Origin: Elusimicrobia bacterium RIFOXYA2_FULL_39_19
Lineage (GTDB): Bacteria > Elusimicrobiota > Endomicrobiia > CG1-02-37-114 > XYA2-FULL-39-19
DNA: 55,559 bases
Direction: 5' to 3'
NCBI GenBank assembly: GCA_001800285.1
Contig: MGVC01000044.1
Location: forward strand, 1 to 55,559
The notes under the pieces were generated by a model, which did not search any database, was not told the origin of the DNA, and worked only from the letters and a program-made list of their open reading frames with translations. The position numbers were made by a program, and so were the translations under genes. Of this stretch, positions 2,596 to 33,057 are shown piece by piece. Every line of letters begins with the position of its first letter. The first letter of the stretch is position 1.

Positions 2596-4299
2596 ATGTG
2601 TCCAGCAGTCCCGTCAGATCTTGAGATAGCACAATCCATAAAGTTAAAACCCATAACCGAAATTGCCAAATCAGCCGGTATTAAAGATGATGAAATAGAG
2701 CTTTACGGCAATAATAAAGCAAAAATAAAACTTGATATATTAAACAGAGTAAAAAACAACAAACAGGCGAAATATGTTGATGTTACCGCTATCACGCCTA
2801 CTCCGTTAGGGGAAGGAAAAACAGTAACAACTATAGGTGCTTCCTTAGGCCTGGCAAAAATAAACAAAAACGTAATTACCTGCATCAGACAGCCGTCGCT
2901 TGGCCCTGTTTTCGGTATTAAAGGCGGAGCTGCCGGCGGAGGTTACTCACAGGTTCTTCCCATGGAAGAATTTAACCTGCATCTCACAGGTGACGTACAC
3001 GCCATAAGCCTGGCCCATAACCTGGGTATGGCGTTTTTAAATAATGCATATTTCAGGAAACAGTTTGATTTTGACCAGAAAAGAATGCTCTGGAGATATG
3101 TAGTAGACATCAGCGACCGCTTTTTAAGAAATATAGTTATAGGGCTTGGTACTGCTGATGATGGCGTGCCGTTACAAACAGGTTTTGATATCTCCGTTGC
3201 CAGTGAATTGATGGCAATCCTCGCACTTACTACTGACCTTAAAGACTTAAGAAAGCGCATAGGCAAAATGGTTATGGCTTTTACAAGAGATGACAAGCCG
3301 GTTACCGCAGAAAATATTAAAGTTGCCGGCGCCATGACGGCCTTAATGATGGAAACTATAAAACCCACACTTCTTCAGACAACCGAATACACGCCCTGTT
3401 TTGTGCACGCCGGCCCGTTTGCAAACATAGCTCACGGTAATTCTTCAATAATAGCTGACCAGATTGCTGTAAAACTGGGAGATTATGTTGTTACAGAATC
3501 CGGCTTCGGCGCGGATTGCGGTATGGAAAAATTTATGAACATCAAATGCAGGTACTCCGGCATCACACCGAACTGCGTTGTAATGGTTTGTTCAATAAGA
3601 GCTTTAAAAATGCATAGCGGTAAGTTTAAAGTAGTAGCTGGCAAACCGCTTGATGCTGGTTTAACCAAAGAAAATATACCTGCCATTGAAGAAGGTATAT
3701 CAAATCTGCAGAAGCAGATTGAAAATGTATTACTTCACGGAGTACCTGTAGTAGTAGCCATAAATAAATTCTCCAGCGATACTGATAACGAAATTAAATA
3801 CGTTCAAAAAAGGGCTCTTGAATTCGGAGCAGAGGCAGCAGTTTTAAGCGAAGTGTGGGAAAAAGGCGGCAACGGCGGGAAAGACCTTGCCCAGGCTATT
3901 GTAAAAGCCTGTGATAAACCGGCAAAATTCCAGCACCTGTACCCGCTGGATATATCAATCAAAGATAAAATACATACAATTGCAACCAAAATATACGGAG
4001 CAAAAGACGTTCAATATACACCTTTAGCAGAAGAAAAAATTAAACTATTCACTGCTTCCGGCTGGGACAAACTGCCTATTTGTATGGCGAAAACGCATCT
4101 ATCTTTATCCCATGACCCGACATTAAAAGGCAGACCGTCAGGCTTTACACTTCCTATCAGAGATATCAGAGCCTCAGTAGGAGCAGGTTTTCTTTACCCG
4201 CTTTGCGGTGAAATGAGAACCATGCCGGGATTACCTTCAGTACCGGCCGGCACAAAAATAGACATTGATGAAAACGGCAGAATAGTCGGACTTTTCTAA
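2596..4299 (+). CDS. fhs: Formate-tetrahydrofolate ligase
   Basis: The cytoplasmic enzyme joins formate to tetrahydrofolate using ATP, giving 10-formyl-THF, the first folate step of the methyl branch. The 567-residue protein contains the P-loop TPLGEGKTVTT near residue 71, then RQPSLGPVFGIKGGAAGGG and NLHLTGDVHAI, all hallmarks of Fhs. The C terminus (LPSVPAGTKIDIDENGRIVGLF) is intact and the length matches the family. It opens the one-carbon gene run behind its own promoter and a GGAGG ribosome site, and 16 bp separate it from the MetV-RnfC fusion. Confidence 0.97.
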   Translation: MCPAVPSDLEIAQSIKLKPITEIAKSAGIKDDEIELYGNNKAKIKLDILNRVKNNKQAKYVDVTAITPTPLGEGKTVTTIGASLGLAKINKNVITCIRQPSLGPVFGIKGGAAGGGYSQVLPMEEFNLHLTGDVHAISLAHNLGMAFLNNAYFRKQFDFDQKRMLWRYVVDISDRFLRNIVIGLGTADDGVPLQTGFDISVASELMAILALTTDLKDLRKRIGKMVMAFTRDDKPVTAENIKVAGAMTALMMETIKPTLLQTTEYTPCFVHAGPFANIAHGNSSIIADQIAVKLGDYVVTESGFGADCGMEKFMNIKCRYSGITPNCVVMVCSIRALKMHSGKFKVVAGKPLDAGLTKENIPAIEEGISNLQKQIENVLLHGVPVVVAINKFSSDTDNEIKYVQKRALEFGAEAAVLSEVWEKGGNGGKDLAQAIVKACDKPAKFQHLYPLDISIKDKIHTIATKIYGAKDVQYTPLAEEKIKLFTASGWDKLPICMAKTHLSLSHDPTLKGRPSGFTLPIRDIRASVGAGFLYPLCGEMRTMPGLPSVPAGTKIDIDENGRIVGLF

Positions 4300-4315: not shown

Positions 4316-6328
4316 ATGCTTGATTACACCAAATACAGACTAAAACCGGACCAGGAAATACTGGATATTTTAAAAGATAAAACCAGCATTTTCCTCGTTT
4401 CCTGTAAAAAATGCTTCCGCGAATTCACCCATGAAGACGGTGAAACCGAAGAGTGTTATATCCTGCCTAAATTCCTCAAAGACAATAATAAAAAGTTTAC
4501 CGGTTGTGTTGACCTTGATTTCCTTTGCAATTCTCATCATAACGCAAAGATACTGAAAGATATCGATTTCAAAGGAGCTGAAGCAGTAGGTGTGCTTTCC
4601 TGCGGTTTAGGGATAGCCCTGGCGGCGCAAACCATAGAAAAGCTGCCAGTATATGCTATCGCAGATACTATTCCTCAGGCGAATAATAATACCTGTGAAA
4701 CCGCTTATCATGGCATCGCTTTAACTGCACAAAAATGCGCGGCCTGCGCCCAATGCTATTTAAATGTTACCGGAGGTATTTGTCCGATAGTTGATTGTTC
4801 AAAAAGCCTGTTAAACGGCCAGTGCGGGGGAGCAAAAAACGGCAAATGTGAAGTGAAGGGGAAAGACAATTCAACAAAAGACTGTGCCTGGGAAAAAATA
4901 TATAACCGCCTTTCTGTTCAAAAATCACCGGATAATAACACAGCAATAAATATTAGAAATTATGCCAAACCTGCCGTAGAATTCATAAACAAACTCTCAA
5001 ATGCTAACCTTGAAAAAAGAAACCAGGGTTTCTACGGCGGATTACATCCTTTTGAAAACAAAGATACTACAAACGAAAAACCAATTTCATCTTTTCCGGA
5101 ACCGGAGACAGTATCCATACTGCTTTCACAGCACACGGGAGCAATCTGCGAACCTCTGGTAAAATCCGGCGATACTGTACAATTTGGTCAGAAAATCGGC
5201 GACTCAAATTCATTCATATCAGCACCCGTTCACTCAAGCGTCAGCGGCAAAGTCATTTCAATTGAAGAAGCCCTGCATCCGGCAATTCAGAAAAAAGTAA
5301 AAGCTGTCATTATTAAAAATGATTTTAAAAACACACAACACGAAAGCGTAAAACCTGCCGTAAATATTGAAGCTTTATCAAAAGAAGAATTAGTAAACAT
5401 AATCCGCGAAAAAGGTATTGTGGGGTTAGGCGGCGCCATGTTTCCTACACACGTCAAACTTAAACCTCCGAAACCCGTAGATACTCTGCTTATAAACGGC
5501 TGTGAATGTGAACCTTATTTGACAGCTGACAATAGAGTTATGATAGAACATGCCCGGGAAGTAATTTCTGGAATTCAAATACTTGAAAAAATCCTTGGAA
5601 CAAAACAAACCCTAATAGCTATTGAAGATAATAAACCTCAGGCCGTAGAGGCAATGAAGACGCAGACAGGTTCAAGCATAACTGTTTCAACCCTGCCCTC
5701 AAAATACCCGCAGGGCGCTGAAAAAGTGCTTATTAAAAAGACGTTGGGCAGAGATGTACCTGCCGGAAAAATACCGCTGGATGTAGGCGTAGTTGTTACA
5801 AATGTCAGCACAGCCTTATCTGTTTATGATGCTGTTTACAAAGGAACGCCTTTAATTGAAAGAATTATCACTATAAGCGGGAAAAACTGCTCAAAACCCG
5901 GGAATTATAAAGTTAAACTCGGGACCCCGTTACAAAACATATTAAAACACTGTTTTGATAAACCTGCAGATACAAACACAGAAATTAAAATGGGTGGCCC
6001 CATGATGGGTATTTTGCAGCCTTCAATAGAAACTTCAATTATTAAAGGTACTACGGGTATCATCACCGTTGATAAAAAAGTTGTTGAACCTGATACACAA
6101 AGGTCTTGCATAAAATGCGGCAGATGTGTAGACGCCTGCCCTATGGAATTATATCCGTTATTCTATGCCTATTGTTCATCAAAGAATAAACTGGAAGATA
6201 ATGAAAAATATGACGTGGCAGCCTGCATTGAATGCGGTTCCTGTGAAAATATCTGTTCATCAAAAATTGCACTAACATCCATAATCAAACAATCGAAACG
6301 TATTATTGCATCAAAAAAGGTATCTTAA
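4316..6328 (+). CDS. MetV-RnfC fusion: methylene-THF reductase accessory/electron-input protein
   Basis: Two domains are visible in 670 residues. Residues 1 to about 215 form a MetV-type cysteine-rich domain with CAACAQCYLNVTGGICPI and LLNGQCGGAKNGKCEV. From about residue 255 a complete RnfC-like part follows: a barrel-sandwich segment (LLSQHTGAICEPLVKSGD), GLGGAMFPTHVKL near 370, NGCECEPYLTAD, and two C-terminal [4Fe-4S] motifs (CIKCGRCVDACP near 597 and CIECGSCENIC near 637). In Acetobacterium woodii the methylene-THF reductase consists of separate MetF, MetV and RnfC2 proteins, with RnfC2 taking electrons from NADH. Here MetV and RnfC are one chain, followed by another metV and metF. I infer an NADH-dependent reductase module. 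No other rnf genes are nearby. The start has no clear ribosome site. Confidence 0.88.
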   Translation: MLDYTKYRLKPDQEILDILKDKTSIFLVSCKKCFREFTHEDGETEECYILPKFLKDNNKKFTGCVDLDFLCNSHHNAKILKDIDFKGAEAVGVLSCGLGIALAAQTIEKLPVYAIADTIPQANNNTCETAYHGIALTAQKCAACAQCYLNVTGGICPIVDCSKSLLNGQCGGAKNGKCEVKGKDNSTKDCAWEKIYNRLSVQKSPDNNTAINIRNYAKPAVEFINKLSNANLEKRNQGFYGGLHPFENKDTTNEKPISSFPEPETVSILLSQHTGAICEPLVKSGDTVQFGQKIGDSNSFISAPVHSSVSGKVISIEEALHPAIQKKVKAVIIKNDFKNTQHESVKPAVNIEALSKEELVNIIREKGIVGLGGAMFPTHVKLKPPKPVDTLLINGCECEPYLTADNRVMIEHAREVISGIQILEKILGTKQTLIAIEDNKPQAVEAMKTQTGSSITVSTLPSKYPQGAEKVLIKKTLGRDVPAGKIPLDVGVVVTNVSTALSVYDAVYKGTPLIERIITISGKNCSKPGNYKVKLGTPLQNILKHCFDKPADTNTEIKMGGPMMGILQPSIETSIIKGTTGIITVDKKVVEPDTQRSCIKCGRCVDACPMELYPLFYAYCSSKNKLEDNEKYDVAACIECGSCENICSSKIALTSIIKQSKRIIASKKVS

Positions 6329-6329
6329 T

Positions 6330-6932
6330 ATGCTTGTAACCCAGCTCAAATCCAAAGAAGAACTTCTTACGATTATTAAAAAACCGGCCTTTGTAATAAA
6401 ATGCACCGGCTGTAAAGAAGTTCTTTTCCCGGTAACTGAAATTGATGAATTCCTGAAAACTGCAGAAATAACCGTATCTGACATTATTTCAACCGATTAT
6501 ATATGTAATACAGATTTTGCATTGAAGTTGTCAGAAAAATATAAATCTGAAATTTCTAATTCCTTAAATATTATTGTTTTTTCCTGCGGTATTGGAGTAC
6601 AGTCAATCAGCGCTTTATTGGAAAACAAAAAAGTCATTTCCGGCTGTGATACACTTTACATAAACGGATTCCAGGGTTTAAACACCAGAGAAAACAACTG
6701 CCGGCAGTGCGGACAGTGTTATCTCAGCGAAACCGGCGGAATTTGCCCCATAACAGCCTGCAGCAAAAGCCTGCTTAACGGCCAGTGCGGGGGTGCAAAA
6801 AACGGTAAATGTGAAGTAAGCAAAGAAATGGAATGCGGATGGGAAAGAATATACAAACGCCTTGAATTGATAAAAGAAACCCAAAAATTAACCGGTGACA
6901 TAAAGGTCCGGGACTATTTAAAATTACTGTAA
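6330..6932 (+). CDS. metV: MetV, zinc/Fe-S-type subunit of methylene-THF reductase
   Basis: This 200-residue protein is a stand-alone copy of the domain found at the N terminus of the preceding gene. It has a CTGCKEV pair near residue 26, a Rossmann-like core (IIVFSCGIGVQSISALL), and the cysteine cluster CRQCGQCYLSETGGICPITACSKSLLNGQCGGAKNGKCEV. In acetogens MetV partners MetF in methylene-tetrahydrofolate reductase. The ATG at 6330 is preferred over one at 6306: it lies one base after the upstream stop and is preceded by AAGG. The cysteine-rich segment is nearly identical in the two copies, while the N-terminal halves differ, which suggests duplication followed by divergence. Confidence 0.85.
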   Translation: MLVTQLKSKEELLTIIKKPAFVIKCTGCKEVLFPVTEIDEFLKTAEITVSDIISTDYICNTDFALKLSEKYKSEISNSLNIIVFSCGIGVQSISALLENKKVISGCDTLYINGFQGLNTRENNCRQCGQCYLSETGGICPITACSKSLLNGQCGGAKNGKCEVSKEMECGWERIYKRLELIKETQKLTGDIKVRDYLKLL

Positions 6933-6944
6933 AAAGGTGAAAAC

Positions 6945-7826
6945 ATGAAACTAAAAGAACTTTTCAACTCCGGGAAATTTGTTCTAACATCCGAAGTCGG
7001 CCCGCCAAAGGGCTGGAACATTGACAAAACTATCCATGAAGCAGAATCACTCAAAGGCATTGTAGACGCAATTAACGTAACAGACAACCAGTCTTCGGTT
7101 ATGAGGTTTGGTTCTCTTGCTGCCTGCCACTTAATAAAAGATAAAGGCATTGAACCGGTTTTTCAGGTTACCTGCAGAGACAGAAACCGACTGGCCCTAC
7201 AGTCCGATATTTTAAGCGCTGCAGGCCTTGGCATTGAAAACATGTTGTTGTTAACGGGTGACCATACAACCCTAGGTGACCATAAAGATGCAAAACCCGT
7301 CTTTGATCTGGATTCAGTATCCTTAATTCATACAATCAAGAAACTCGAAAGCGGCGTTGACCTGGCAAATAACAAATTAGACGGTGAACCGCCAAAATTC
7401 TGCATAGGGGCAGTAGTTTCTCCATGTGCAGAACCTTTGGAACCGCAGTTAATGAAAATGGACCGCAAAATAAAAGCCGGTGTAGAGTTTTTCCAGACCC
7501 AGGCGGTTTACGAAACGGACAAATTTGCTAAATTCATGGAAAAAGCCAAAAACTCCGGCATACCAGTTATGGCAGGAATTGTTATACTTAAATCAGTAGG
7601 AATGGCAAAGTTCATGAATGAAAATGTTGCCGGCATACATGTTCCTGATAATCTAATAGAAGAGTTAAAAAAAGATAAAGAAAAAACAAAATCCGGTCAG
7701 ACAGGCATAGAAATTGCCGCGCGTTTAATAAAAGACCTTAAACCTTATTGCCAGGGCATACATCTTATGCCGCTGGGCTGGGATGATAAAGTCCCGCAAA
7801 TCCTAAAATTATCGGGGTTAATCTAA
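6945..7826 (+). CDS. metF: Methylenetetrahydrofolate reductase catalytic subunit
   Basis: The enzyme reduces 5,10-methylene-THF to 5-methyl-THF, the last step of the methyl branch, on a flavin held in a TIM barrel. The 293-residue protein begins with FVLTSEVGPPKG, which carries the catalytic glutamate, and continues with INVTDNQSSVMR, PVFQVTCRDRNRLALQSD and LLLTGDHTTLGDH, the standard MetF order. FFQTQAVYETDKF matches the later substrate-binding strand. A GGTG ribosome site lies 12 bp after metV. The stop codon shares one base with the start of the PilZ gene (TAATG), so the two are probably translationally coupled. Confidence 0.95.
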   Translation: MKLKELFNSGKFVLTSEVGPPKGWNIDKTIHEAESLKGIVDAINVTDNQSSVMRFGSLAACHLIKDKGIEPVFQVTCRDRNRLALQSDILSAAGLGIENMLLLTGDHTTLGDHKDAKPVFDLDSVSLIHTIKKLESGVDLANNKLDGEPPKFCIGAVVSPCAEPLEPQLMKMDRKIKAGVEFFQTQAVYETDKFAKFMEKAKNSGIPVMAGIVILKSVGMAKFMNENVAGIHVPDNLIEELKKDKEKTKSGQTGIEIAARLIKDLKPYCQGIHLMPLGWDDKVPQILKLSGLI

Positions 7827-8179
7827 TGGCAGAAAACAGCAATAATGAAAGGCGCAGGTTTGATAGAGTAGATGTTTCCGGTACAGTAAAAATTACTGCA
7901 CCCATAAGTATTTCAAGCAATCAGGGTGATTTTTACGGAATACTTGTAAATATCAGCATTGGCGGTATGGGGGTTGAACTAAATGAGAAACTGCAACTTC
8001 AAAGCATACACGTGTTTTCTTTTACACTAAACCATAAATATGAAATAAAGTTAAAAGGCCAGGTAAAGTGGTTTTTGCAGAAAGACAAAGCGTATCTTCA
8101 TGGCATAGAATTCACGAAAATCGGGTTTTTTACAAAACTTAAACTGAAAAAATATCTAAATGAATCGTTATCCAGCTAA
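7826..8179 (+). CDS. PilZ-domain protein, likely c-di-GMP receptor
   Basis: The 117-residue protein is a single PilZ domain. The cyclic-di-GMP binding signature is complete: RRRFDR near residue 10 gives RxxxR, and NISIGGMG near residue 49 gives the (D/N)xSxxG motif. PilZ proteins bind c-di-GMP and pass the signal to a partner. Both ends are overlapped by one base (TAATG), with metF upstream and fchA downstream, so expression is tied to the one-carbon operon. A c-di-GMP phosphodiesterase-type gene lies two genes on. The partner is unknown. Confidence 0.88.
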   Translation: MAENSNNERRRFDRVDVSGTVKITAPISISSNQGDFYGILVNISIGGMGVELNEKLQLQSIHVFSFTLNHKYEIKLKGQVKWFLQKDKAYLHGIEFTKIGFFTKLKLKKYLNESLSS

Positions 8180-8814
8180 TGCATAAATATCTTGATCAAA
8201 GTTTAGACAAATATCTCAATGACTTGGCTTCAAACCAGCCTGCTCCCGGCGGCGGCAGCGCCTCTGCCCTTGCGGCTTCTACGGGAATATCCCTTTTTTT
8301 AATGGTTGCAAACTTCACTTTAAACAAAAAAGGATATGAGGTGTGCCAGGAAGAAGTTAAAAAAATAGTAACCACGCTCTCTGAATTGAAAACAAAAATG
8401 AATATACTTATTGACGAGGACGTAATTGTTTACCAGCAGGTTTCTCTTGCTTATAAACTGCCAAAAAACACAGAAGAAGAAAAAAACACAAGGGCTTCCG
8501 CCATAGAATCAGTTTCAAAAACTGCTATGTCAGTACCCTGGAAAATAATGGAAGGCTGTCTCGATGCTGCACCTTATGCCAGTAGATTATCGGAAATTGG
8601 CAATAATAATTTAATCAGTGATATTTACTGCGGTGCAGAATTCATTCAATCAGCGTTCAACTCAGCTGTTTGTAACATTGAAATAAACTTGAAAAACATA
8701 AAAGACAGTTCTTTTGTTTCCCAGCATAGAACCATTTATTCAAACAAAAGCAAACTTATAAATTCTCAAATATCTGTTATTTTGAAGAAAACCGGCGGTT
8801 TTATCGCTTTCTAG
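8179..8814 (+). CDS. fchA: Methenyltetrahydrofolate cyclohydrolase (cyclodeaminase family)
   Basis: The product converts 10-formyl-THF to 5,10-methenyl-THF. The family also includes formiminotransferase-cyclodeaminase. The 211-residue protein has the defining glycine-rich loop PAPGGGSASALAAS at residues 22-35 and the all-helical pattern that follows (VMVP-like MSVPWKIMEGC, then LSEIGNNNLISDIYCG). The operon also carries folD, which often has cyclohydrolase activity itself, so the two may divide the cyclohydrolase and dehydrogenase steps. It starts on the TAATG overlap with the PilZ gene. Confidence 0.88.
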   Translation: MHKYLDQSLDKYLNDLASNQPAPGGGSASALAASTGISLFLMVANFTLNKKGYEVCQEEVKKIVTTLSELKTKMNILIDEDVIVYQQVSLAYKLPKNTEEEKNTRASAIESVSKTAMSVPWKIMEGCLDAAPYASRLSEIGNNNLISDIYCGAEFIQSAFNSAVCNIEINLKNIKDSSFVSQHRTIYSNKSKLINSQISVILKKTGGFIAF

Positions 8815-8828
8815 GGGAGATAAGACAA

Positions 8829-10811
8829 ATGGGCTACAATTTTCTGTCAACATTTTTATCAATTGTCACGCTGCTGCTTTTGACCTTTGTTCTTGTCAGG
8901 CAGAAAAAAACTGTCTTACACTACGAATTTGGATTAATTCTTCTGGTTCTTGCCTTTGCTTTTTTTGCAAAACATATGAGCTTTACTGAAACAACTTTAG
9001 AAAATATAACCAAATGGGAAAGGATCATTCATAGCGCCAACGTTTTATTCGCTGCTACGCTGGTTCTTTTCTGCTATAACCTCACCCGCGACAAATTTAA
9101 CATCACCTTCGGAATAATATCGTACATTACAGCAGCGATATTGATCTTAATAATAAATTCAAAATACGGAATAGCAGGAATAGAAAATGTTAATCCAATA
9201 AAATATCACACTGGATCCTTATATCCCGTCACAAGAATACCTTTATTATTTGTTTTGTTTTACAGTTTATATGAAGTCATAAGAGCATCCATTATTTCAA
9301 AAGGACTGAAAAAGCTTCAGCTGCAATACATAATTCTAAGCCTTATACTTTTTCTTATAGTCGGTATGGTTTACGGCTTACTCATGCCCTTAATGGGAAA
9401 CTGGCAATCCACTCTTTATGCAATGATTCTGAACTTCTTTCCTTTAATAATTATAACCTATGCGCTTTCACCCAGATTGCTCAGCACTAAAATTGTTTTT
9501 TACAATTCCTTTAAATATATATTAATTGCTATTGTAATGATTGTTTGTGATACACTTATTTCCAGTAGTTTTAAAATACATCACACTTTTTCTCTTATCA
9601 TAACCATGGTACTAACTTCGATTGTTTACTTTCCACTCTTCACAAAAAACTCCTTCTCTCATATAATTGAAAACATTGTTTTGAGAAAACGCCTGGAATA
9701 CCAGAGCCTGCTGGTTGAAACCTCGGCTGCTGTGGTAAAAATACTGGATGTTTTTCAGTTGCTTGATTTTACGGTAAGCTCCCTTTACAGGGCTTTAAAA
9801 ACAGAAAAAATAGGCATATTCCTTACTGAAACCATACAAAATAAAACAATGCTTAAACTCCACGCCAATAGAGGCCTTAATAACCTTAAAACCGGATATA
9901 TCTTCAACCAAAAACTCATAACCCTTTTCACTTCAAAAAAATCCACTTTAATTATTGATTCCTCTTTTAACAGGCTTTCAAATAACGAATCAGAAGAATA
10001 CAAGGAAATAATTACTGAACTAACCCAATTTGGTACCATGCTGGTGCTTCCGATTATAAATAAAAGTGAACTAATAGGCATTATAACTTTTGACCAGAAA
10101 AAATCTACGGGCGACTTTTTTGATATCCAGGACATTGAAATTCTTGAAAGCCTTGCAGTAAATCTGGGTATTGCCATATCTAATGCCAGGCTATATAAAG
10201 AACTGGATGACACCTACTTAAGAATTACCCGTGCTTTATCGCTTGTGTTAGAAACCAAAGACTCCTACACGGTCGGCCATTCCGACAATGTAACAAAATA
10301 TTCGCTTATCATCGCAAAAAAACTCAATCTTCCTGAAACCGAGATTGTAAAAGTTGCCCAGGCATCCATGCTTCATGACCTCGGCAAGATTGGTGTTCAC
10401 GATTACATTCTTGAAAAACGCACAAAGCTTACTCCCGAGGAGTGGGAAGAGATTAAACTACACACAATAAAAGGCGCAAAAATTCTTGATTCACTGCCAT
10501 TTTTAAAAGAAGTTTCCTCCATAGTCAAACATCACCACGAACACTTTAACGGCAATGGGTACCCGTCACATCAAAAGGGAAATGAAATCCCACTGGGATC
10601 GCAGATACTTGGCATTGCAGATGCTTTTGACGCTATGACTACCGAACGCCCCTATAAATCAAATAAACTCGGCATAGAAGATGCCATAAACGAACTTATC
10701 AAAAACAGCGGCACGCAGTTTAATCCAGAAATAGTAAAACTTTTTATTGAATCTATAAGAGACAACCCTAATATACTCACAAGTAAAAAAATAATGCAAG
10801 GAGAAATGTAA
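8829..10811 (+). CDS. Membrane-bound GAF/HD-GYP protein, predicted c-di-GMP phosphodiesterase
   Basis: The 660-residue protein has about nine hydrophobic helices in residues 1-285, resembling 7TM-type sensor regions, then a GAF domain (about 295-455) and an HD-GYP domain (about 465-650). The metal-binding dyad HDLGKIG is at residue 516 and the HHHEHFNGNGYP motif ends near 579. HD-GYP enzymes hydrolyse c-di-GMP. The GAF and membrane parts presumably sense a ligand. A GGGGAG ribosome site lies after fchA. The gene lies between fchA and folD, and the folD ribosome site overlaps its 3' end, so it appears to be a true operon member. With the PilZ protein it forms a possible c-di-GMP circuit within folate metabolism. 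Confidence 0.9.
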   Translation: MGYNFLSTFLSIVTLLLLTFVLVRQKKTVLHYEFGLILLVLAFAFFAKHMSFTETTLENITKWERIIHSANVLFAATLVLFCYNLTRDKFNITFGIISYITAAILILIINSKYGIAGIENVNPIKYHTGSLYPVTRIPLLFVLFYSLYEVIRASIISKGLKKLQLQYIILSLILFLIVGMVYGLLMPLMGNWQSTLYAMILNFFPLIIITYALSPRLLSTKIVFYNSFKYILIAIVMIVCDTLISSSFKIHHTFSLIITMVLTSIVYFPLFTKNSFSHIIENIVLRKRLEYQSLLVETSAAVVKILDVFQLLDFTVSSLYRALKTEKIGIFLTETIQNKTMLKLHANRGLNNLKTGYIFNQKLITLFTSKKSTLIIDSSFNRLSNNESEEYKEIITELTQFGTMLVLPIINKSELIGIITFDQKKSTGDFFDIQDIEILESLAVNLGIAISNARLYKELDDTYLRITRALSLVLETKDSYTVGHSDNVTKYSLIIAKKLNLPETEIVKVAQASMLHDLGKIGVHDYILEKRTKLTPEEWEEIKLHTIKGAKILDSLPFLKEVSSIVKHHHEHFNGNGYPSHQKGNEIPLGSQILGIADAFDAMTTERPYKSNKLGIEDAINELIKNSGTQFNPEIVKLFIESIRDNPNILTSKKIMQGEM

Positions 10812-10814: not shown

Positions 10815-11762
10815 ATGACAGCACAATTAATTGACGGAGTAAAAATTTCTGAGATTATCAAACAGCAAACAAAAACAGAACTGGAAACTTTGGTAACCAA
10901 AACCGGCAGAAAACCTCTTTTATGCGCCGTACAAATAGGTGAAAATGCATCCAGTAAAGTCTATGTAAAGAACCAGAAAACTGCCTGCGAAGAGATAGGC
11001 ATAGAGTACCGCCTCATTGAACTGCCGGAAGATACAACGGAAGAAAAAGCAATTTCAACATTAAATGAACTTAATAATGACAAATCCGTTACTGGTATAA
11101 TATTGCAGATGCCTGTTCCCGCTCAAATAAATGTAAAAAAAGCACAAATTACCATAGCTCCGGAAAAAGATGTTGAGGGAATTACTCCTCCGAACTTAGG
11201 CAAACTGCTTTTTGCAGGAATGAATCCGATTGTTGCTCCCTGCACTGCTTTGTCTGTAATTGAGTGTATAAAATCTACCGGCATCGGGCTCAAAGGCAAA
11301 GAAACTGTAATTGTCGGCCACAGCGAAATAGTAGGAAAACCCGTTACCTTAATGCTTATTTCATCTTTAAATGAATCTGCCACACCGACTGTCTGCCACA
11401 TTGCCACAAAAAACCTTAAAGAGCATACCCTCCGTGCGGATATTGTAATAGTAGCCGTAGGAAAACCGGGCCTTGTCAATGCTGATATGATTAAAGAAGG
11501 AGCCATTGTTATTGATGTCGGTATAAACAGGATACAGCAGAAGGATAGTTCAGGAAATCCTATAATTGATGAAAAAACCGGCAAACCTAAAATGAAAACT
11601 ATAGGAGATGCGGACTTTGAAAGCATTTCAAAAAAAGCATCATTCATTACACCGGTACCTGGCGGTGTAGGAGCTGTAACTACCGTGCTTTTAACGAAAA
11701 ACCTGCTCCACCTTTTTAAAATCCAATCCGGTGAACCTGTGTCCGCCTACAAGCTTATATAA
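10815..11762 (+). CDS. folD: Bifunctional methylene-THF dehydrogenase/methenyl-THF cyclohydrolase
   Basis: The enzyme interconverts 5,10-methenyl- and 5,10-methylene-THF with NAD(P)(H). Recognisable parts are YVKNQKTACEEIGI (which includes the catalytic lysine region), ILQMPVPAQI, the Rossmann segment VIVGHSEIVGKPV, and the C-terminal ITPVPGGVGAVTTVLLTKN. At 315 residues it is about 30 longer than common FolD proteins, from an insertion near residues 240-255 (SSGNPIIDEKTGKPKMKT) and a short tail. The start is 3 bp after the HD-GYP stop, with AAGGAG inside the previous gene. Confidence 0.95.
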   Translation: MTAQLIDGVKISEIIKQQTKTELETLVTKTGRKPLLCAVQIGENASSKVYVKNQKTACEEIGIEYRLIELPEDTTEEKAISTLNELNNDKSVTGIILQMPVPAQINVKKAQITIAPEKDVEGITPPNLGKLLFAGMNPIVAPCTALSVIECIKSTGIGLKGKETVIVGHSEIVGKPVTLMLISSLNESATPTVCHIATKNLKEHTLRADIVIVAVGKPGLVNADMIKEGAIVIDVGINRIQQKDSSGNPIIDEKTGKPKMKTIGDADFESISKKASFITPVPGGVGAVTTVLLTKNLLHLFKIQSGEPVSAYKLI

Positions 11763-22353: not shown

Positions 22354-24543
22354 ATGTCCCAGATAATTTTTGATCTTGCTTTAAGCGGAGCCAAGAAAAT
22401 AGTAACAATGGCAGATGATATGCTAAAAAAAGCTGTCAGTGAAAAAGGGGAATCACAGAAAATAGAGTTTCCTGAAACGGCCTTTTACTTTCCTGTTGCC
22501 CATGCCCTGCTGGGCCACGAAGTAAAAACATTAAAAGACATCCAAATACCTCTAAACGAAGCGAAAGCCCTCATAAAAACAGAAGGATTTACTAATTCAA
22601 AACTTGCGCAGTTAGGTGTGTTAGACAGCGGTCTTGCTGCCTTATTAGGCACAGAAATAATAACCGGTATAAGATACCTGAATAATCAGGAACCCCAGAA
22701 AGACTGCAACGGATTTTTCAGCGATACTATTTTAAGAACTCTCGGCATTCAGCTGGTTGACGGCCGTTTACCCGGTTTTGCAGCCATACTTGGTGCCTCT
22801 AAAGACAGCAAAACAGCAGTAGAAATAGTCCGTGAATTCCAGAAAAGAAACATTCTTGTTTTTGCCGGCTCTGCAACTGACGGCAAATCCATAATTGACC
22901 AGTTAATAGAAGAAAAAGTAGAAATGGGCTGGGATAACTACATAGTTCCTTACGGCAGAGATACAGTATCAGCCGTATATCCGCTGAGCTGGGCTCTGCG
23001 CGGAGCTATGACATTCGGCGGTATCAAACCCGGTAACGCCGCAGCCTGCCTGAAATATACCAAAGAAAGAGTATTTGCTTTTGCTCTCACCCTGGGAAAC
23101 GTTGATGAGTTTAAAGTAGCGGCAGGCGCCGCAGCTATAAACCTGGGTTTTCCTGTAATTGCAGATACGGATGTCCCTGAAATTATGCATACCGGCTTAT
23201 GTACTTATGAAACGCTGGTAAAAGAACTGGACTACAAAAAAATTCCGCAGAAATGTATAGACGTTAGAGGCGTAAAAGTAAAAATATCCAAAATCCCCGT
23301 CCCTGTTCCTTTTGCCGCCGCTTTTGAAGGGGAAAGAGTAAGAAAAGAGCAAACCCACGTGGAATTCGGCAGTAAATATTCTACCGCTTTTGAATATCTG
23401 AAAATGAATGAGATGAAAGATGTGCAGGACGGCCTGATTAAAGTAATCGGCCCGGATGCAGACACAGTAAAACCAACCGAAACCGGCCCTGCCGCACTGC
23501 CCTTAGGCATAGTAGTAGAAGTAGCCGGCAGAAAAATGCAGAAAGATTTTGAGCCCGTACTGGAACGCCAGATACACCACTTTATAAACTTTGCTATGGG
23601 CATCTTTCACATGGGCCAGCGTGACCAGATCTGGGTGCGCATAAGCAAAGACTCTTTTGCATCAGGTTTCCGCGTAAAACATTTCGGTGAAATATTGCGC
23701 GCCAAATTCCTTGAAGATTATCCCGCGCTGGTAGATAAAGTGCAGGTAACCATTTATACCGATAAAAAAGAAATTGACAAACTGCTTCCCGAAATTCAAC
23801 AAGCATTCAACGAACGTGATGAACGTCTGGCAGGCCTTACAGATGATTCCGTAGATACCTTTTACTCCTGTACCCTGTGCCAAAGCTATGCGCCAAACCA
23901 CGTCTGTGTAATTTCACCTGAAAAGTTGGGCCTTTGCGGGGCCTATAACTGGCTTGACGGCAAAGCGGCCTATGAAATAAACCCCAAAGGCATGAACCAG
24001 CCCATTTCCAAAGGGGATTTACTGGACCCCGTTAACGGCGAATGGCAGGGCGTAAATAAATTTGTTTATGACAACTCCAATAAATCCATAGAGCGGTTTT
24101 TTAATTATGCCATCATGGAATTTCCTACTACTTCCTGCGGCTGTTTTGAATGTATTGTGGCAGTCCTGCCGGAATGTAACGGCGTAATGGTAGTAAACCG
24201 CGGTTATACCGGCATGACACCTATCGGTATGACCTTCACTTCCCTTGCCAGCTCCGTAGGAGGTGGCAGCCAGACACCAGGCTTTCTTGGCGTAGGCAGA
24301 ATATACCTTGCCAGCAAAAAGTTTTTAGTGCCCGAAGGCGGATTTCACCGCGTTGTCTGGATGACCAAAGAACTTAAAGAAGTACTTTCAGACAGGTTAA
24401 AGAAACGTTCACAGGAACTGGACACCCCTGACTTTTTTGACAAAATTGCAGATGAAACCGTTACAACTGATTCTGCACAATTAATTGAATACCTGCAGAA
24501 GGTTGATCACCCGGCCTTAAAAATGCCCCCAATAATAAAATAA
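22354..24543 (+). CDS. acsB: Acetyl-CoA synthase (CODH/ACS alpha subunit)
   Basis: The enzyme assembles acetyl-CoA from CO, a methyl group and CoA on a nickel-iron-sulfur A-cluster. The 729-residue length equals that of Moorella ACS. The cluster ligands fall at the same positions as there: cysteines 506, 509, 518 and 528 (C-x2-C-x8-C-x9-C) hold the [4Fe-4S] part, and C595-G-C597 holds the distal nickel. The N-terminal CODH-binding region is present, so this is the bacterial full-length form, not the shorter archaeal one. The CODH subunit gene acsA is absent from the window. A GAGAGG ribosome site precedes the ATG. Confidence 0.97.
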   Translation: MSQIIFDLALSGAKKIVTMADDMLKKAVSEKGESQKIEFPETAFYFPVAHALLGHEVKTLKDIQIPLNEAKALIKTEGFTNSKLAQLGVLDSGLAALLGTEIITGIRYLNNQEPQKDCNGFFSDTILRTLGIQLVDGRLPGFAAILGASKDSKTAVEIVREFQKRNILVFAGSATDGKSIIDQLIEEKVEMGWDNYIVPYGRDTVSAVYPLSWALRGAMTFGGIKPGNAAACLKYTKERVFAFALTLGNVDEFKVAAGAAAINLGFPVIADTDVPEIMHTGLCTYETLVKELDYKKIPQKCIDVRGVKVKISKIPVPVPFAAAFEGERVRKEQTHVEFGSKYSTAFEYLKMNEMKDVQDGLIKVIGPDADTVKPTETGPAALPLGIVVEVAGRKMQKDFEPVLERQIHHFINFAMGIFHMGQRDQIWVRISKDSFASGFRVKHFGEILRAKFLEDYPALVDKVQVTIYTDKKEIDKLLPEIQQAFNERDERLAGLTDDSVDTFYSCTLCQSYAPNHVCVISPEKLGLCGAYNWLDGKAAYEINPKGMNQPISKGDLLDPVNGEWQGVNKFVYDNSNKSIERFFNYAIMEFPTTSCGCFECIVAVLPECNGVMVVNRGYTGMTPIGMTFTSLASSVGGGSQTPGFLGVGRIYLASKKFLVPEGGFHRVVWMTKELKEVLSDRLKKRSQELDTPDFFDKIADETVTTDSAQLIEYLQKVDHPALKMPPIIK

Positions 24544-24555
24544 AAGGAAAGAAAC

Positions 24556-25272
24556 ATGAAAAAACACAACATTATTTTTCTGCATCACAGCACAGGAAAC
24601 GTTATATGGAAAGGCGGCGTGCCCGAATGGTTTGCCTCATATAATGCTTCAAACAAAACAGATATTAAAATCACAGAACAGGCCTTTCCCAAGAAAGTAC
24701 CTTACGGCTGGAAAAACTATCCCTATGATTACTGGAAAATTTGGGTTAAAAATGCCGGCAATATGCCGTATCTGGAAGAACCCACCCTTGAAATGTTAAC
24801 CAAGGAATATGATGTAATCATCTTTAAGCACTGCTTTCCAGTTACAGATGTTGAAGCAGACACCGGAACTCCTGATATAACATCAAATGAAATGACTCTG
24901 GAAAACTTTAAACTTCAATACAATGCCCTGAAACAAAAACTTCACCAGTTTCCCGGCACAACTTTCATTCTCTGGACCGGCCCTGCCCAGGTAAAAAACG
25001 AAACAAACGAAGAAAACGCCAAACGCGCAAAGATATTTTTTGACTGGGTAAAAAATACCTGGAATGAAAATAATGATAACATATATCTTTGGGATTTCTA
25101 TGAGCTGGAAACCGAAAGGGGGCTCTATTTGAAAGAAGAATACGCCGCCGCTTCGGATGATTCGCATCCAAATGAGCTTTTTGCCAAAAAAGCCTGTCCG
25201 TTATTTTGCCAGAGAATAATTGATGTTATTTCCGGAAAAGGCGCCCAAACAAACCTTACCGGCAGGCCATAA
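24556..25272 (+). CDS. SGNH-hydrolase-like protein of unknown function
   Basis: The 238-residue protein begins with IIFLHHSTGNVIW and ends with DDSHPNELFAKKACPLFCQRI. The second part resembles the DxxH block of SGNH/GDSL hydrolases, and HHSTG sits where the GDS block would be, so an SGNH-like fold is likely but catalysis is uncertain. It has no signal peptide, so it should be cytoplasmic. It lies 12 bp after acsB and ends before the acsC promoter, so it is cotranscribed with acsB. I know of no role for such a protein in acetyl-CoA synthesis. Confidence 0.6.
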   Translation: MKKHNIIFLHHSTGNVIWKGGVPEWFASYNASNKTDIKITEQAFPKKVPYGWKNYPYDYWKIWVKNAGNMPYLEEPTLEMLTKEYDVIIFKHCFPVTDVEADTGTPDITSNEMTLENFKLQYNALKQKLHQFPGTTFILWTGPAQVKNETNEENAKRAKIFFDWVKNTWNENNDNIYLWDFYELETERGLYLKEEYAAASDDSHPNELFAKKACPLFCQRIIDVISGKGAQTNLTGRP

Positions 25273-25290
25273 ACCCTCAGACTATTTTAT

Positions 25291-25319
25291 TTGACAAAAT
25301 TGTAAATATTTCACATAAT
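25291..25319 (+). promoter_or_regulatory. Promoter upstream of acsC
   Basis: TTGACA at 25291-25296 and CATAAT at 25314-25319 are 17 bp apart, a near-consensus sigma-70-type promoter. An AAGGAAGG ribosome site follows before the acsC ATG at 25358. The corrinoid-protein genes can therefore be transcribed separately from acsB. Confidence 0.7.
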
Positions 25320-25357
25320 ATTGACTGTAAAAAACAATAAAAAGGAAGGGCAAAATA

Positions 25358-26698
25358 ATGGCTTTAACCGGACTGGATATTTATAAATTACTACCAAAAA
25401 CTAACTGTAAAAAATGCGGATTTCCTACATGCCTGGCGTTTGCCATGGCTATTGCCGCCAAAAAAACAGCCCTTGATAAATGCCCTGATATTTCCGATGA
25501 AGCAAAAGCCACTCTTTCTGCCGCCAGCGAACCGCCTATCAGAACTATTACTATCGGCGCCGGAGAAAAAAAACTTGAAATCGGCGGGGAAACCGTACTT
25601 TTCAGGCACGAAAAAACATTTTTTCATCCTTGCGGACTGGGCATAACCATAAGCGACACAACTTCTCCCGCGGATTTACAGGATAAAATAAAAAAGTTTA
25701 ATGCGCTTTCCTTTGAACGGGTAGGCCAGAAAGTAAAAGCAGAAATCATTGCAGTAAAAAATGATTCCAATGATAAATCAAAATTTATAAATACCGTAAA
25801 AGAAGTTAAATCAAAAACAACCGCACTTTTAGTGCTTTTAAGCAATGATACTTCAGCCCTTGAAGAAGCCGTAAAAATAGCCGGAGATGCAAAACCAGTT
25901 ATCGGCCCGGCAAATATTTCAAACGCTGACCAAATTACAGCTATTGCCAAGTCAAATAATGCAAATATACTGGCAACCGGCAAGGATTTAGATGAAATAA
26001 GCACTGTAACAGGTAAAATATCGGCTTCCGGCTACAAAGAAATACTTATTGACCTTTCAAACGTAAAAGATATCACATCCCTTGAAAATCTTACCCAGAC
26101 CCGCAGAATGGCGTTAAAAAAGAATATCCGTTCCATAGGCTTTCCGGCACTTGTGTTCACATCCGGTGCCAATACTTATGACCATTTATCCTATGCCGCC
26201 ATGGCTATAGCCAAATATGCCGGCATCGTTATTCTGCCGGAACCAGACCCTTCAATATTTCTTCCGCTTGTAACTTTAAGGCAGAATATTTACACAGACC
26301 CGCAGAAACCCGTAACCGTAGACTCTAAACTTTATGCAATAGGCGGCCAGCCGGGCGCAAATTCACCCGTAATTGTTACTACCAATTTTTCGCTTACCTT
26401 TTTCTCCGTTGAGCCGGAAATACTTAACGCAAAAGTGCCTACCTGGCTTCTTATAGTTGATACAGACGGCCTGTCCGTGCTTACGGCCTGGGCCGCAGAA
26501 AAGTTCCATGCCGAAAAAGTGCTTGATGCCATGAAAAAAGCAAACCTGGAAAGCGTAGTTTCGCATAAAAAAATTATTATTCCGGGCTACGTAGCCGTGA
26601 TGGCGCCGAAATTAAACGAAATTTCCGGCTGGGAAATACTTATCGGGCCCCGTGAAGCAAGCGCAATACCGAAATATCTCAGGTCAAGCTGGCAATAA
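25358..26698 (+). CDS. acsC: Corrinoid iron-sulfur protein large (gamma) subunit
   Basis: With AcsD it forms the corrinoid carrier that takes the methyl group from methyl-THF and delivers it to acetyl-CoA synthase. The 446-residue protein starts with the [4Fe-4S] domain (NCKKCGFPTCLAFAMAIAAKKTALDKC, a C-x2-C-x4-C…C pattern near residues 17-42), continues with a TIM barrel, and ends with a corrinoid-binding domain (LSVLTAWAAEKFHAEKV…, GYVAVMAPKLNEISGWEILIGPREA). Length is normal. Confidence 0.96.
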   Translation: MALTGLDIYKLLPKTNCKKCGFPTCLAFAMAIAAKKTALDKCPDISDEAKATLSAASEPPIRTITIGAGEKKLEIGGETVLFRHEKTFFHPCGLGITISDTTSPADLQDKIKKFNALSFERVGQKVKAEIIAVKNDSNDKSKFINTVKEVKSKTTALLVLLSNDTSALEEAVKIAGDAKPVIGPANISNADQITAIAKSNNANILATGKDLDEISTVTGKISASGYKEILIDLSNVKDITSLENLTQTRRMALKKNIRSIGFPALVFTSGANTYDHLSYAAMAIAKYAGIVILPEPDPSIFLPLVTLRQNIYTDPQKPVTVDSKLYAIGGQPGANSPVIVTTNFSLTFFSVEPEILNAKVPTWLLIVDTDGLSVLTAWAAEKFHAEKVLDAMKKANLESVVSHKKIIIPGYVAVMAPKLNEISGWEILIGPREASAIPKYLRSSWQ

Positions 26699-26741
26699 AC
26701 CGTTTGCCTGAACTTAACCAGTCTCTCCACAAAAAACCATA

Positions 26742-28646
26742 ATGACCCACAAAGTAAAAATACCTTTATTAGCAAAAGAAACTGCAGTTTCAGATAACAC
26801 TGACCTGCTGACAGCGCTAAGCAAAGCAGGCGTTGCCATAAAAGCAGTCTGCGCCGGCCAGGGCACCTGCGGGTCCTGCAAAGTAAAAATAATTTCCGGC
26901 GAACACTTTTCATCGCCTTCACCCTGGATAACCAAAGAAGAAAAAGAAAATGGCATCTGTCTTGCCTGCCAGACAGCCGTGCTGGGGAATATGGACATTG
27001 AAGTCCCTAAAGATTCCCGGCTGGAAAACATACAGACCGCCGGTGATGAAATCCCTGCAGATACAATTTCTGAATTTCCTCAAACCGGCGCTAATGACTT
27101 TAGTAAACTTTCACCCCTGGCAGTAAAAATACACATTAAACTGCCGGAACCATCACTAAAAGATAATATCCCAGACTTTGAAAGATTAACCAAAGAACTT
27201 ACCCGTATAACCGGCATTGAACAATTCTCTATAAACCTCAATCTGCTTAAAAATATCAGTAAATTTATCAGAAAATCAGAGTGGGACATTACCGCCACCA
27301 TTGCCCGGCATAACTGTGCGCAGGAAATAATCCAGATTGAAGCCGGAAACACTGTCTCTGAAAGCTACGGCATAGCTCTGGATATCGGCACAACCACACT
27401 GGTGGCATATCTGGTAAATCTAAACACAGGCAAAGTAACGGCATCTAAAGGCACTATAAACCAGCAAATGTCTTACGGCGAAGATGTAATTACCAGAATA
27501 ATGTATGCCCAGCAGAAAGACGGCCTGCAAAAACTTCAAAACACCATTATTGAAAATGTTAACGGCCTTATTAACGCACTTTTAATTGAAAATAGTATCA
27601 GTCCGCACAACATTATGGCTCTACAAGCATCAGGCAATACTACCATGACACATCTTTTTCTTGGCATAAACCCGGACTATATCCGCAAGGAACCCTATAT
27701 TCCTGCAATAAATTTTCCGCCATCAGTTTATGCCTGTGAACAGGGCATAAAAATAAATCCGCGCGGTATTATTTCCTTTATGCCTTCGGTGGCATCGTAT
27801 GTAGGCGGGGATATTACGGCAGGCGTGCTAGCCTGCGGTATGGATAATTCTTCAGAGATTTCCCTGCTGATAGATTTAGGCACTAACGGGGAAATAGCTC
27901 TGGGCAATAATGACTGGCTGGTTTCTGCCGCCTGCTCCGCCGGCCCGGCTTTTGAAGGAGTGGGTATTAAATGCGGTATCCGCGCTATTGACGGCGCCAT
28001 ACAGGAAATTGAAATATCAAAAGATAAGTTGAGTGTTAAGTACAAAACGATAAATGATAAAAAACCCAGGGGCATCTGCGGTACAGGGCTTATTGATATA
28101 CCTGCGGAACTTTTAAGAAAAGGCATTATTAACCGTGACGGCCGCTTTGTTACGGCCGATGTTTCACCGCGCCTGCGCAAAAACTCTGATGATGAAATGG
28201 AGTTTTTAATAGCAGCTGCTACGGAAACAGAAAACAAAAGGGATATTGTTATAACGGAGTCTGATATCTCAAATATAATCCGTTCAAAAGGCGCTATTTT
28301 TCTGGGTATTGTTGTTTTACTGCAGGAAGTAGGGTTGGGTTTTGACAGTATCTCAAAAATATACATTTCCGGAGGATTCGGCACCTATCTGGATGTGGAA
28401 AAAGCTGTTACTATAGGATTACTGCCTGATTTACCAAGAAACAAATACAGTTTTATAGGCAACTCATCTATCACCGGCGCCAAACTATGCCTGATTTCAC
28501 AGGAAGCCAGAAACAAAGCGGCACAGCTTGCCGGCAAAATGACTTACATAGAACTTTCTGTAAACCCGAAATTTATGAATGAATACACTTCTACGCTTTT
28601 TCTACCGCATACTGACTTAAACCTTTTTCCAACCATAAAACTATGA
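26742..28646 (+). CDS. acsV: Reductive activator of the corrinoid protein (ASKHA-type ferredoxin)
   Basis: The 634-residue protein has an N-terminal [2Fe-2S] domain (CAGQGTCGSCKVKI…CLACQTAV, residues about 38-78), a linker, and a large ASKHA-fold part (YGIALDIGTTTLVAYLVNL near 207; DLGTNGEIALG and CSAGPAFEGVGIKCG further on). This is the architecture of RACo/AcsV, which uses ATP to return Co(II) to Co(I) in the corrinoid iron-sulfur protein. It lies between acsC and cooC, as expected. No clear ribosome site precedes the ATG. The stop overlaps cooC (ATGA). Confidence 0.93.
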   Translation: MTHKVKIPLLAKETAVSDNTDLLTALSKAGVAIKAVCAGQGTCGSCKVKIISGEHFSSPSPWITKEEKENGICLACQTAVLGNMDIEVPKDSRLENIQTAGDEIPADTISEFPQTGANDFSKLSPLAVKIHIKLPEPSLKDNIPDFERLTKELTRITGIEQFSINLNLLKNISKFIRKSEWDITATIARHNCAQEIIQIEAGNTVSESYGIALDIGTTTLVAYLVNLNTGKVTASKGTINQQMSYGEDVITRIMYAQQKDGLQKLQNTIIENVNGLINALLIENSISPHNIMALQASGNTTMTHLFLGINPDYIRKEPYIPAINFPPSVYACEQGIKINPRGIISFMPSVASYVGGDITAGVLACGMDNSSEISLLIDLGTNGEIALGNNDWLVSAACSAGPAFEGVGIKCGIRAIDGAIQEIEISKDKLSVKYKTINDKKPRGICGTGLIDIPAELLRKGIINRDGRFVTADVSPRLRKNSDDEMEFLIAAATETENKRDIVITESDISNIIRSKGAIFLGIVVLLQEVGLGFDSISKIYISGGFGTYLDVEKAVTIGLLPDLPRNKYSFIGNSSITGAKLCLISQEARNKAAQLAGKMTYIELSVNPKFMNEYTSTLFLPHTDLNLFPTIKL

Positions 28647-29392
28647 ATATAAAAATTGCAGTAGCTGGAAAAGGTGGAGTGGGAAAAACCACCTTCTGCG
28701 CTTTCCTTATTAAAGAACTCATAAACCAGAACAAAACGCCTCTTTTGGCAATTGATGCAGACCCCAACTCAAACCTGGCACAGCTGCTGGGCATAAAATA
28801 TGAAACCACTATTGCCGATATCCGCGAAGAAATAAGAGAAAATAAAAACATTCCCGCCAGTATGGCTAAAAGCGATTACATAGATATGAAACTCAACGAA
28901 ATAATAGTTGAAGGAAAAGGCGCGGATTTTATTGCCATGGGCAGGCCCGAAGGCAAAGAATGTTACTGCTATATCAATGAGCTTTTAAGAGGTTTTCTTG
29001 CAAAAATATCCAAACAGTATTCTACCATAGTCATTGATAACGAGGCAGGGATGGAGCATCTTTCCCGAAGGACTACAGAAAACATAGATTATCTCTTTAT
29101 TGTAGCCGACACCAGTGTAACCGGCCTGCGTTCAGCTATGAATGTTTACAACCTTTCTGAAAAACTGAAACTTAAAATAGGAAACATATTTCTTGTATTA
29201 AATAAAGTTAAAGATACATTTGTTTTACCGGCCGGCATACTGAATAATTCCCTGAAAATAATCGGCAATCTGCCTTACCGCGACGCCATACTTTCCAACA
29301 GCGAAAAAGGCCTGCCTGCCGAAAATTCAGCAGAAAACGCACCCTACACCGACGAACTCCAGGAAATACTGAAAAAATCAGGCATTATTTGA
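28643..29392 (+). CDS. cooC: CooC/AcsF-type nickel-insertion ATPase
   Basis: The product is a MinD-like ATPase that helps insert nickel into CODH/ACS. The 249-residue protein has a deviant Walker A (AGKGGVGKTT), LLAIDADPNSNLAQLLG, the family's GRPEGKECYCYINELLR segment with a CxC metal site, and DNEAGMEHLSRR. AcsF and CooC cannot be told apart from sequence alone. It overlaps acsV by four bases. Confidence 0.93.
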   Translation: MNIKIAVAGKGGVGKTTFCAFLIKELINQNKTPLLAIDADPNSNLAQLLGIKYETTIADIREEIRENKNIPASMAKSDYIDMKLNEIIVEGKGADFIAMGRPEGKECYCYINELLRGFLAKISKQYSTIVIDNEAGMEHLSRRTTENIDYLFIVADTSVTGLRSAMNVYNLSEKLKLKIGNIFLVLNKVKDTFVLPAGILNNSLKIIGNLPYRDAILSNSEKGLPAENSAENAPYTDELQEILKKSGII

Positions 29393-29417
29393 ATTTGAAG
29401 CATTAAATTTATATAAT
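29389..29417 (+). promoter_or_regulatory. Promoter upstream of acsD
   Basis: TTGAAT at 29389-29394 and TATAAT at 29412-29417 are 17 bp apart. The -35 box overlaps the end of cooC. A GGGAG ribosome site stands before the acsD ATG at 29448. Confidence 0.55.
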
Positions 29418-29447
29418 CAGTCAACTTAAATACGGGAGCGTTTTATC

Positions 29448-30395
29448 ATGGAAAAAGTAATTGAAAAAGCGGTATCAAAAATATCGGAATTAGCTATCGG
29501 CGCCACCTCAGCAAACGGCGGAACCAGAGAAAAAGAACTGAAAATTGGCGGCCAGAGCGCTATGCCATTTTTACATTTTGAAGGCTCTATGCCTAATGCC
29601 CCCGTAGTTGCCCTGGAAGTATGGGACACGGTACCTGAGGAATGGCCGTTAATTGCCGACGAATTTAAGGACATCGTAAACGATCCTATAAAATGGGCCC
29701 AGAAAGGCAAGGAATGGGGGGCAGATTTAATAAGCCTGCGCCTTGAGTCCTGCCATCCTGATAATAAAAATAATTCAGCTGCTTATGCCGCGGATTTAGT
29801 AAAAAAAGTTTTAGCCGCTACCAAACTTCCGCTTATTGTTATCGGCTGCGGCCACCCGGAAAAAGACCAGGAAATACTGCCGGCTGTAGCAGAAGCTGCT
29901 AAAGGCGAAAAAATACTTTTAGGTATGGCAACAAAAGATAACTATAAAACCATTGTTGCTGCCGCCTTAGCCAGCGGGCACAGCATAATTGCAGAATCTC
30001 CGCTTGATATCAATCTTGCAAAACAGCTAAACATTCTTGTTTCAGATATGAGCATGCCTCTGGAAAGAATAGCCATGCACCACACCACCGGCGGGCTGGG
30101 GTACGGTTTTGAATATTGTTACTCTATAATGGAAAGATGCCGCTTAGCCGGACTTGCCGGAGATAAAATTATGGCGACACCCATCATAAACATGATTGCG
30201 GATGAAACCTGGAAAACCAAAGAAGCAAAAACCCCGCAGGATGAACAGCCAAACTGGGGAGACCTTCACAAAAGAGCCATAAACTGGGAAATTGCCTGTG
30301 CTGCAGGATATTTACAATCCGGAGCTGACATTCTGGTTTTAGCTCATCCGGAATCCATTAAACAAGTTAAACAGACTATAGGTAAATTAAAATAA
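29448..30395 (+). CDS. acsD: Corrinoid iron-sulfur protein small (beta) subunit
   Basis: It forms a TIM barrel that pairs with AcsC to cradle the corrinoid. The 315-residue protein shows family motifs KIGGQSAMPFLHFEGSMP, ALEVWDTVPEEWP, LISLRLESCHPD and HHTTGGLGYGFEYCYS. Length matches the family. It has its own promoter and precedes the zinc-ribbon gene. Confidence 0.96.
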   Translation: MEKVIEKAVSKISELAIGATSANGGTREKELKIGGQSAMPFLHFEGSMPNAPVVALEVWDTVPEEWPLIADEFKDIVNDPIKWAQKGKEWGADLISLRLESCHPDNKNNSAAYAADLVKKVLAATKLPLIVIGCGHPEKDQEILPAVAEAAKGEKILLGMATKDNYKTIVAAALASGHSIIAESPLDINLAKQLNILVSDMSMPLERIAMHHTTGGLGYGFEYCYSIMERCRLAGLAGDKIMATPIINMIADETWKTKEAKTPQDEQPNWGDLHKRAINWEIACAAGYLQSGADILVLAHPESIKQVKQTIGKLK

Positions 30396-30422
30396 CAATA
30401 TATTTTCGGGAGGAATCAGAGG

Positions 30423-31547: not shown

Positions 31548-31559
31548 AAAACAATTTGA

Positions 31560-31736
31560 AAACTATCGCAGGGGTAAAGTAAAAACGATATCCTGTGAAC
31601 AAAAATGTTTGAGACACAGGGTAAACGGCAGTTACCTAATTCGTGTCTGCTGGTATCTGCTAAGAAAGATTGCAGACCACACATGCATCCATCCCGCTAT
31701 GCGAGATAGAATTCTGCTGCCGTTTAAGGAGTACCA
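31560..31736 (+). promoter_or_regulatory. Structured leader of the acetate kinase gene
   Basis: The spacer before ackA can fold. AAACGGCAG (31623-31631) pairs exactly with CTGCCGTTT (31717-31725), which touches the AAGGAG ribosome site. Inside it GTCTGC (31645-31650) pairs with GCAGAC (31672-31677). The fold could control access to the ribosome site. It matches no riboswitch class I know. Confidence 0.4.
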
Positions 31737-32936: not shown

Positions 32937-32963
32937 TGTTTAGAGCTGTGGTATTGTCTTTCA

Positions 32964-33041: not shown

Positions 33042-33057
33042 GTCTTTAGGAGGCCAG

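Follow-up and report, generated by a model that had tools for sequence, protein, structure and literature searches.

A locus in Elusimicrobia bacterium RIFOXYA2_FULL_39_19 encodes two MetV parts, one fused to RnfC and the other free beside MetF, and raises the question of whether this is a new complex or a known type of methylene-tetrahydrofolate (methylene-THF) reductase (MTHFR), and of how electrons would reach MetF in it. The locus lies in the window, by which we mean the whole stretch of DNA analysed (55,559 nucleotides), and all window features given below are on the + strand. The fusion gene, metV-rnfC (4316..6328), runs from ATG to TAA with no internal stops and encodes 670 residues. 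PF12225 (DUF5981, 'Methylene-tetrahydrofolate reductase C terminal') matched residues 122-208 with 81 bits (cut-off 23), and the full-length RnfC family TIGR01945 matched residues 239-667 with 497 bits (cut-off 246); each of the best 80 of 428 relatives likewise carries the two domains fused. A preliminary description had read this chain as a MetV domain followed by an entire RnfC that carries a pair of 4Fe-4S motifs, and these matches, together with the motifs themselves (C598-C608 and C637-C647), bear it out.

The N-terminal MetV domain spans approximately residues 1-216 (4316..4963), with 12 conserved cysteines at positions 30, 33, 71, 96, 141, 144, 147, 156, 161, 170, 178 and 190. A linker of approximate boundaries follows (residues ~217-238; 4964..5029), which is weakly conserved in the alignment and coincides with segments 205-219 and 227-243 of the AlphaFold2 fusion model, whose confidence is low, as for a flexible link. 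The RnfC domain (residues 239-667; 5030..6316) comprises a barrel-sandwich part (RnfC_N), a NuoF-like FMN/NADH part (Nuo51 FMN domain), SLBB (below its cut-off) and a dicluster ferredoxin part with two CxxCxxCxxxC motifs, C598, C601, C604 and C608 (6107..6139) and C637, C640, C643 and C647 (6224..6256), both invariant in 26 fusions. It aligns end to end with the solved RnfCs of A. woodii, C. tetanomorphum and A. vinelandii, and its AlphaFold2 model is confident and agrees with A. woodii RnfC (9eri_C; 42% identity, TM 0.89 by target length). The MetV model has a mean pLDDT of 78, and its cysteine-rich part, where the clusters are expected, is of low confidence.

Directly after the fusion come a stand-alone metV and metF, as had also been described. 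The lone metV (6330..6932; 200 residues; PF12225, 104 bits) starts at ATG 6330, one base past the fusion TAA (the TTG at 6306, given as its start by the ORF tool, is an earlier in-frame codon), and its product falls in the clade of fusion-partner MetVs; a structure search with its model returned no PDB match below E 0.001, and phmmer found no solved MetV homologue. The gene for the catalytic subunit, metF (6945..7826; 293 residues), matched PF02219 with 134 bits. The gene order is fhs, metV-rnfC, metV, metF, pilZ, fchA, a GAF-HD gene and folD. Around the reductase genes lie fhs for formate-tetrahydrofolate ligase (2596..4299; PF01268, 830 bits; NCBIfam NF010030 over its cut-off), an fchA-like gene for methenyl-THF cyclohydrolase/cyclodeaminase (8179..8814; PF04961, 199 bits), whose top NCBIfam match, NF045657, is nevertheless below that family's cut-off, and folD for methylene-THF dehydrogenase/cyclohydrolase (10815..11762; PF02882 and PF00763). 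Farther downstream, NCBIfam and Pfam matches delimit an acetyl-CoA synthase region (22354..33846) with acsB (22354-24543), acsC (25358-26698), acsV/RACo (26742-28646), a cooC-like gene (28643-29392; generic ATPase matches only), acsD (29448-30395), ackA (31737-32936) and an acsE-like gene (33058-33846), and hence much of the Wood-Ljungdahl pathway is encoded in the window.

The methyl-branch operon also includes two signalling genes: one for a PilZ-domain protein (7826..8179; PF07238) and one for a membrane GAF-HD (HD-GYP-like) protein (8829..10811; HD_5 and GAF). Within the same family and order, the relatives L022 and L023 have the HD gene only and L027 has both. A link between c-di-GMP signalling and one-carbon metabolism is possible on the strength of these operon genes.

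We assign the window fusion, metV and metF with considerable confidence to type III (3S-type) MTHFR, the RnfC2-MetV-MetF enzyme of Acetobacterium woodii and Blautia, and most likely to an NADH-dependent one. The assignment rests on the domains, the A. woodii parallel, the best 80 of 428 relatives, the clades, the 12 cysteines, and the operon with fhs, fchA and folD together with the acs region. In A. woodii, RnfC2 (Awo_c09290) differs from RnfC1 in being extended at the N-terminus by 220 residues that resemble MetV, and metV and metF come next (Poehlein 2012; PMC3315566); the extension has since been restated and used to classify type III or 3S-type MTHFR (PMC8760232, PMC8515935), with Blautia schinkii named as a type III organism (PMC8760232). 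What marks this type is present in the window: metV and metF directly adjoin the gene for an RnfC-like subunit, this subunit carries MetV at its N-terminus (one ORF matches both PF12225 and RnfC), a further MetV stands alone next to MetF (6330-6932), ancestry is common to B. schinkii (L109), and ligands for six 4Fe-4S clusters are predicted (12 Cys per MetV plus 8 in RnfC). The preliminary description had contrasted the fusion with A. woodii, where MetF, MetV and RnfC2 were said to be separate; they are indeed three chains, but RnfC2 is itself already the MetV fusion (PMC3315566, PMC8760232, PMC8515935).

The purified A. woodii MTHFR contains RnfC2, MetF and MetV at 1:1:1, is NADH-dependent without ferredoxin reduction, and holds ~24 Fe, that is, six 4Fe-4S clusters (PMC8760232). 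By analogy with it, the one enzyme of this type for which these properties are known, we infer the same composition and NADH dependence for the window enzyme, NADH rather than NADPH being assumed as donor from the family. NADH would reduce the FMN of the RnfC part of the fusion, from which electrons would pass through the two 4Fe-4S clusters of RnfC to those of the fused MetV domain, then to the clusters of the lone MetV and on to the MetF flavin, where methylene-THF would be reduced and the CODH/ACS branch thereby supplied with methyl-THF. The order fused MetV, lone MetV, MetF is the presumed one. That the fusion fixes an NADH-oxidising RnfC to one MetV while an unequal MetV sits beside MetF, as earlier suggested, is still the reading that we favour and is in line with the enzyme purified from A. 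woodii (PMC8760232), but the complex is not a new one. As to energy conservation at the methylene-THF step itself, on which the locus was thought to bear, nothing in the window sequence shows it.

The inequality of the two MetVs allows another path, in which the fused MetV domain is a docking surface only and electrons pass from RnfC directly to the lone MetV. Fused and lone MetVs of the same locus are just 32-44% identical, and the fused ones lack a 13th cysteine of their partners, both of which favour this path. All 12 conserved cysteines are nonetheless kept, across phyla, in 29/29 fused MetVs (as in 29/29 partner lone MetVs), and six clusters, two of them expected in the fused MetV, are consistent with the iron measured in the A. 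woodii enzyme (PMC8760232), so that we consider a docking role alone unlikely and favour electron transfer through both MetVs. A degenerate fused MetV, as a separate candidate, is ruled out by the retention of 12/12 conserved cysteines. The 13th cysteine, Cys106 of the window lone MetV (in GCDT; 6645-6647), occurs in 28/29 partner MetVs versus 1/29 fused MetVs and was not found in the six non-partner MetVs of the alignment; judged from these aligned sequences, it is a residue-level mark that separates partner from fused MetVs.

In a tree of 72 MetVs (30 fused, 30 lone partners and 12 from loci without an adjoining fusion), the fused MetVs formed one clade (SH-aLRT 100) and the lone partners another (SH-aLRT 97), with the 12 others falling apart from both. 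The separate clades indicate that the pairing of two unequal MetVs is ancient and common to type III (3S) MTHFR. When distances between fused MetVs were compared with those between their partners, pair by pair, the correlation was 0.96 (29 loci), as expected if the pair travelled together, although shared species history alone would also give a high value. Both the fused MetV and the fused RnfC cluster with those of B. schinkii (L109), and on the simplest reading of the trees the fusion would have arisen once, long ago, and then spread both vertically and horizontally. Pairs of MetVs so old, strictly paired and unequal pose a question for structural studies of A. woodii MTHFR, namely the role of each MetV.

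Fused RnfCs likewise formed one clade (SH-aLRT 94; setting aside L147, the truncated G012 fusion, which was mislabelled and is identical to L025_F), separate from the RnfCs of Rnf complexes. This bears on the proposal that the fusion replaces RnfC on the membrane Rnf complex, so that methylene-THF reduction would be fed by Rnf and coupled to ion transport, a hypothesis already in print (Poehlein 2012, PMC3315566; Oppinger 2021, PMC8760232). The presence of an rnfC-D-(G)-E-A-B cluster elsewhere in the same genome (G000:C42:9473-14234), and of a separate rnfC in most checked genomes with the fusion, speaks for it. That cluster keeps its own rnfC, however, which makes docking less likely, and the distinct clade of fused RnfCs indicates that in these genomes a separate RnfC serves the Rnf complex; the fusion, with its extra domain and its place outside an rnfABDEG cluster, is also unlike an Rnf-complex subunit. 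Moreover, purification from A. woodii yielded a heterotrimer able to use NADH directly (PMC8760232). We therefore give docking on Rnf very little weight and retain the type III RnfC2-MetV-MetF assignment.

Nor is the fusion peculiar to this contig. Among 341 Elusimicrobiota genomes, nine (the window's own included) had a MetV match within an open frame 539-706 residues long that adjoins a lone MetV, and reading these locus by locus gave fusion, then lone metV, then metF; in a tenth (G340), the contig end cuts a fusion, of which the RnfC part is left. An unbroken fusion followed by lone metV was seen in at least nine further Elusimicrobiota genomes (two interrupted by contig ends). An assembly or frameshift artefact joining two genes can be dismissed, since the same junction, open frame and gene order recur in at least 10 Elusimicrobiota genomes and the same fusion in the best 80 of 428 public loci from several phyla; the stop or frameshift at the domain junction that might have undone the preliminary reading is not there.

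The search for this architecture across genomes that had been suggested was also made. Public genomes were scanned with the stretch from MetV through RnfC-N of eight fusions, and from the 428 relatives obtained the best 80 were retained; all of these 80 have the fusion, a lone metV lies directly downstream in 78/78 without contig-end loss, and metF is behind it in nearly every one of these loci with enough DNA. Because the query spanned both domains and only the best 80 of 428 were kept, the result speaks to breadth, not frequency: the 80 come from Bacillota (including B. schinkii), Omnitrophota, Aerophobetes, Desantisbacteria, Chloroflexota (Dehalococcoidia) and Elusimicrobiota. A novel fusion, as an alternative, is ruled out by the literature and by its presence in all of the best 80 of 428 relatives. 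The window fusion is not new and is ordinary apart from its host phylum, the little-studied Elusimicrobiota, for which we found nothing linking them with RnfC2 among open-licence papers. The MetV-RnfC fusion is hence a feature common to the whole enzyme type and no oddity of one genome, and the range of type III MTHFR widens to Elusimicrobiota and several other candidate phyla.

A different gene set occupies the same operon slot in five other Elusimicrobiota genomes (G003, G333, G335, G337 and G338), which lack the fusion there and carry genes for hydrogenase small and large subunits directly before metV-metF (L027:8148-10573, L038:7822-10159, L040:3779-6180, L172:4825-7121 and L173:8280-10624), with fhs upstream wherever the contig extends to it. 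The nearest PDB relatives of the large subunit are [NiFeSe] hydrogenases (group 1-like), both nickel-site motifs being kept, and the N-terminus of the small subunit has no visible Tat signal; the enzyme is taken as cytosolic. The metF products of these operons are 78-82% identical to that of the window, and fusion and hydrogenase were never seen together in one slot among the Elusimicrobiota loci examined. Tentatively, MetV-MetF may be a constant core that receives electrons from one of two partners exchanged as cassettes in the operon, either the MetV-RnfC fusion (NADH) or the [NiFeSe]-like hydrogenase (H2); if true, the latter arrangement would be an H2-driven methylene-THF reductase, a kind that we did not find among the published types. 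One of these genomes has, besides its hydrogenase-type operon, a second metV without the fusion (L039:4143-4868; G333:C17). The window's own genome (G000) yielded no [FeFe] hydrogenase throughout and two weak, short matches to the Ni-hydrogenase family; one of these two, L167:631-1887, has CxxC motifs and resembles the large subunit of an energy-converting hydrogenase (group 4 type).

Set beside known systems, the window shares MetV and MetF with type II (2S) MetVF of Clostridium ljungdahlii, which is without RnfC2 and NADH use (PMC8760232, PMC8515935). The type IV (Hdr) enzyme does not match, as hdrCBA and mvhD are not beside metVF, whose neighbours are fhs, pilZ, fchA, the GAF-HD gene and folD. 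RnfCs of Rnf complexes (A. woodii 9eri_C and the genome's own at G000:C42) have the same fold and cofactor motifs as the window RnfC, but they lack the MetV extension and form a separate clade. With A. woodii (Awo_c09290-09310), as known from published descriptions and complemented here by B. schinkii sequences, the window has in common the MetV-RnfC fusion, the lone metV, metF and clustering with fhs, fchA and folD (PMC3315566, PMC8515935, PMC10472528). A. woodii, from a different phylum, has fhs, fchA and folD all upstream of rnfC2, whereas in the window fhs precedes the fusion and fchA and folD lie downstream, with the PilZ and GAF-HD genes between. In B. schinkii DSM 10518 (L109) and other Lachnospiraceae, whose fusions form a separate Bacillota branch inside the fused clade, the fusion, lone metV and metF are ordered as in the window; metV also starts one base past the fusion stop, as in the window, and the fusion is 48% identical to that of the window. 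For the window MTHFR itself, the analysis shows directly which genes and domains it has, the ligands of its clusters, its operon setting and its descent.
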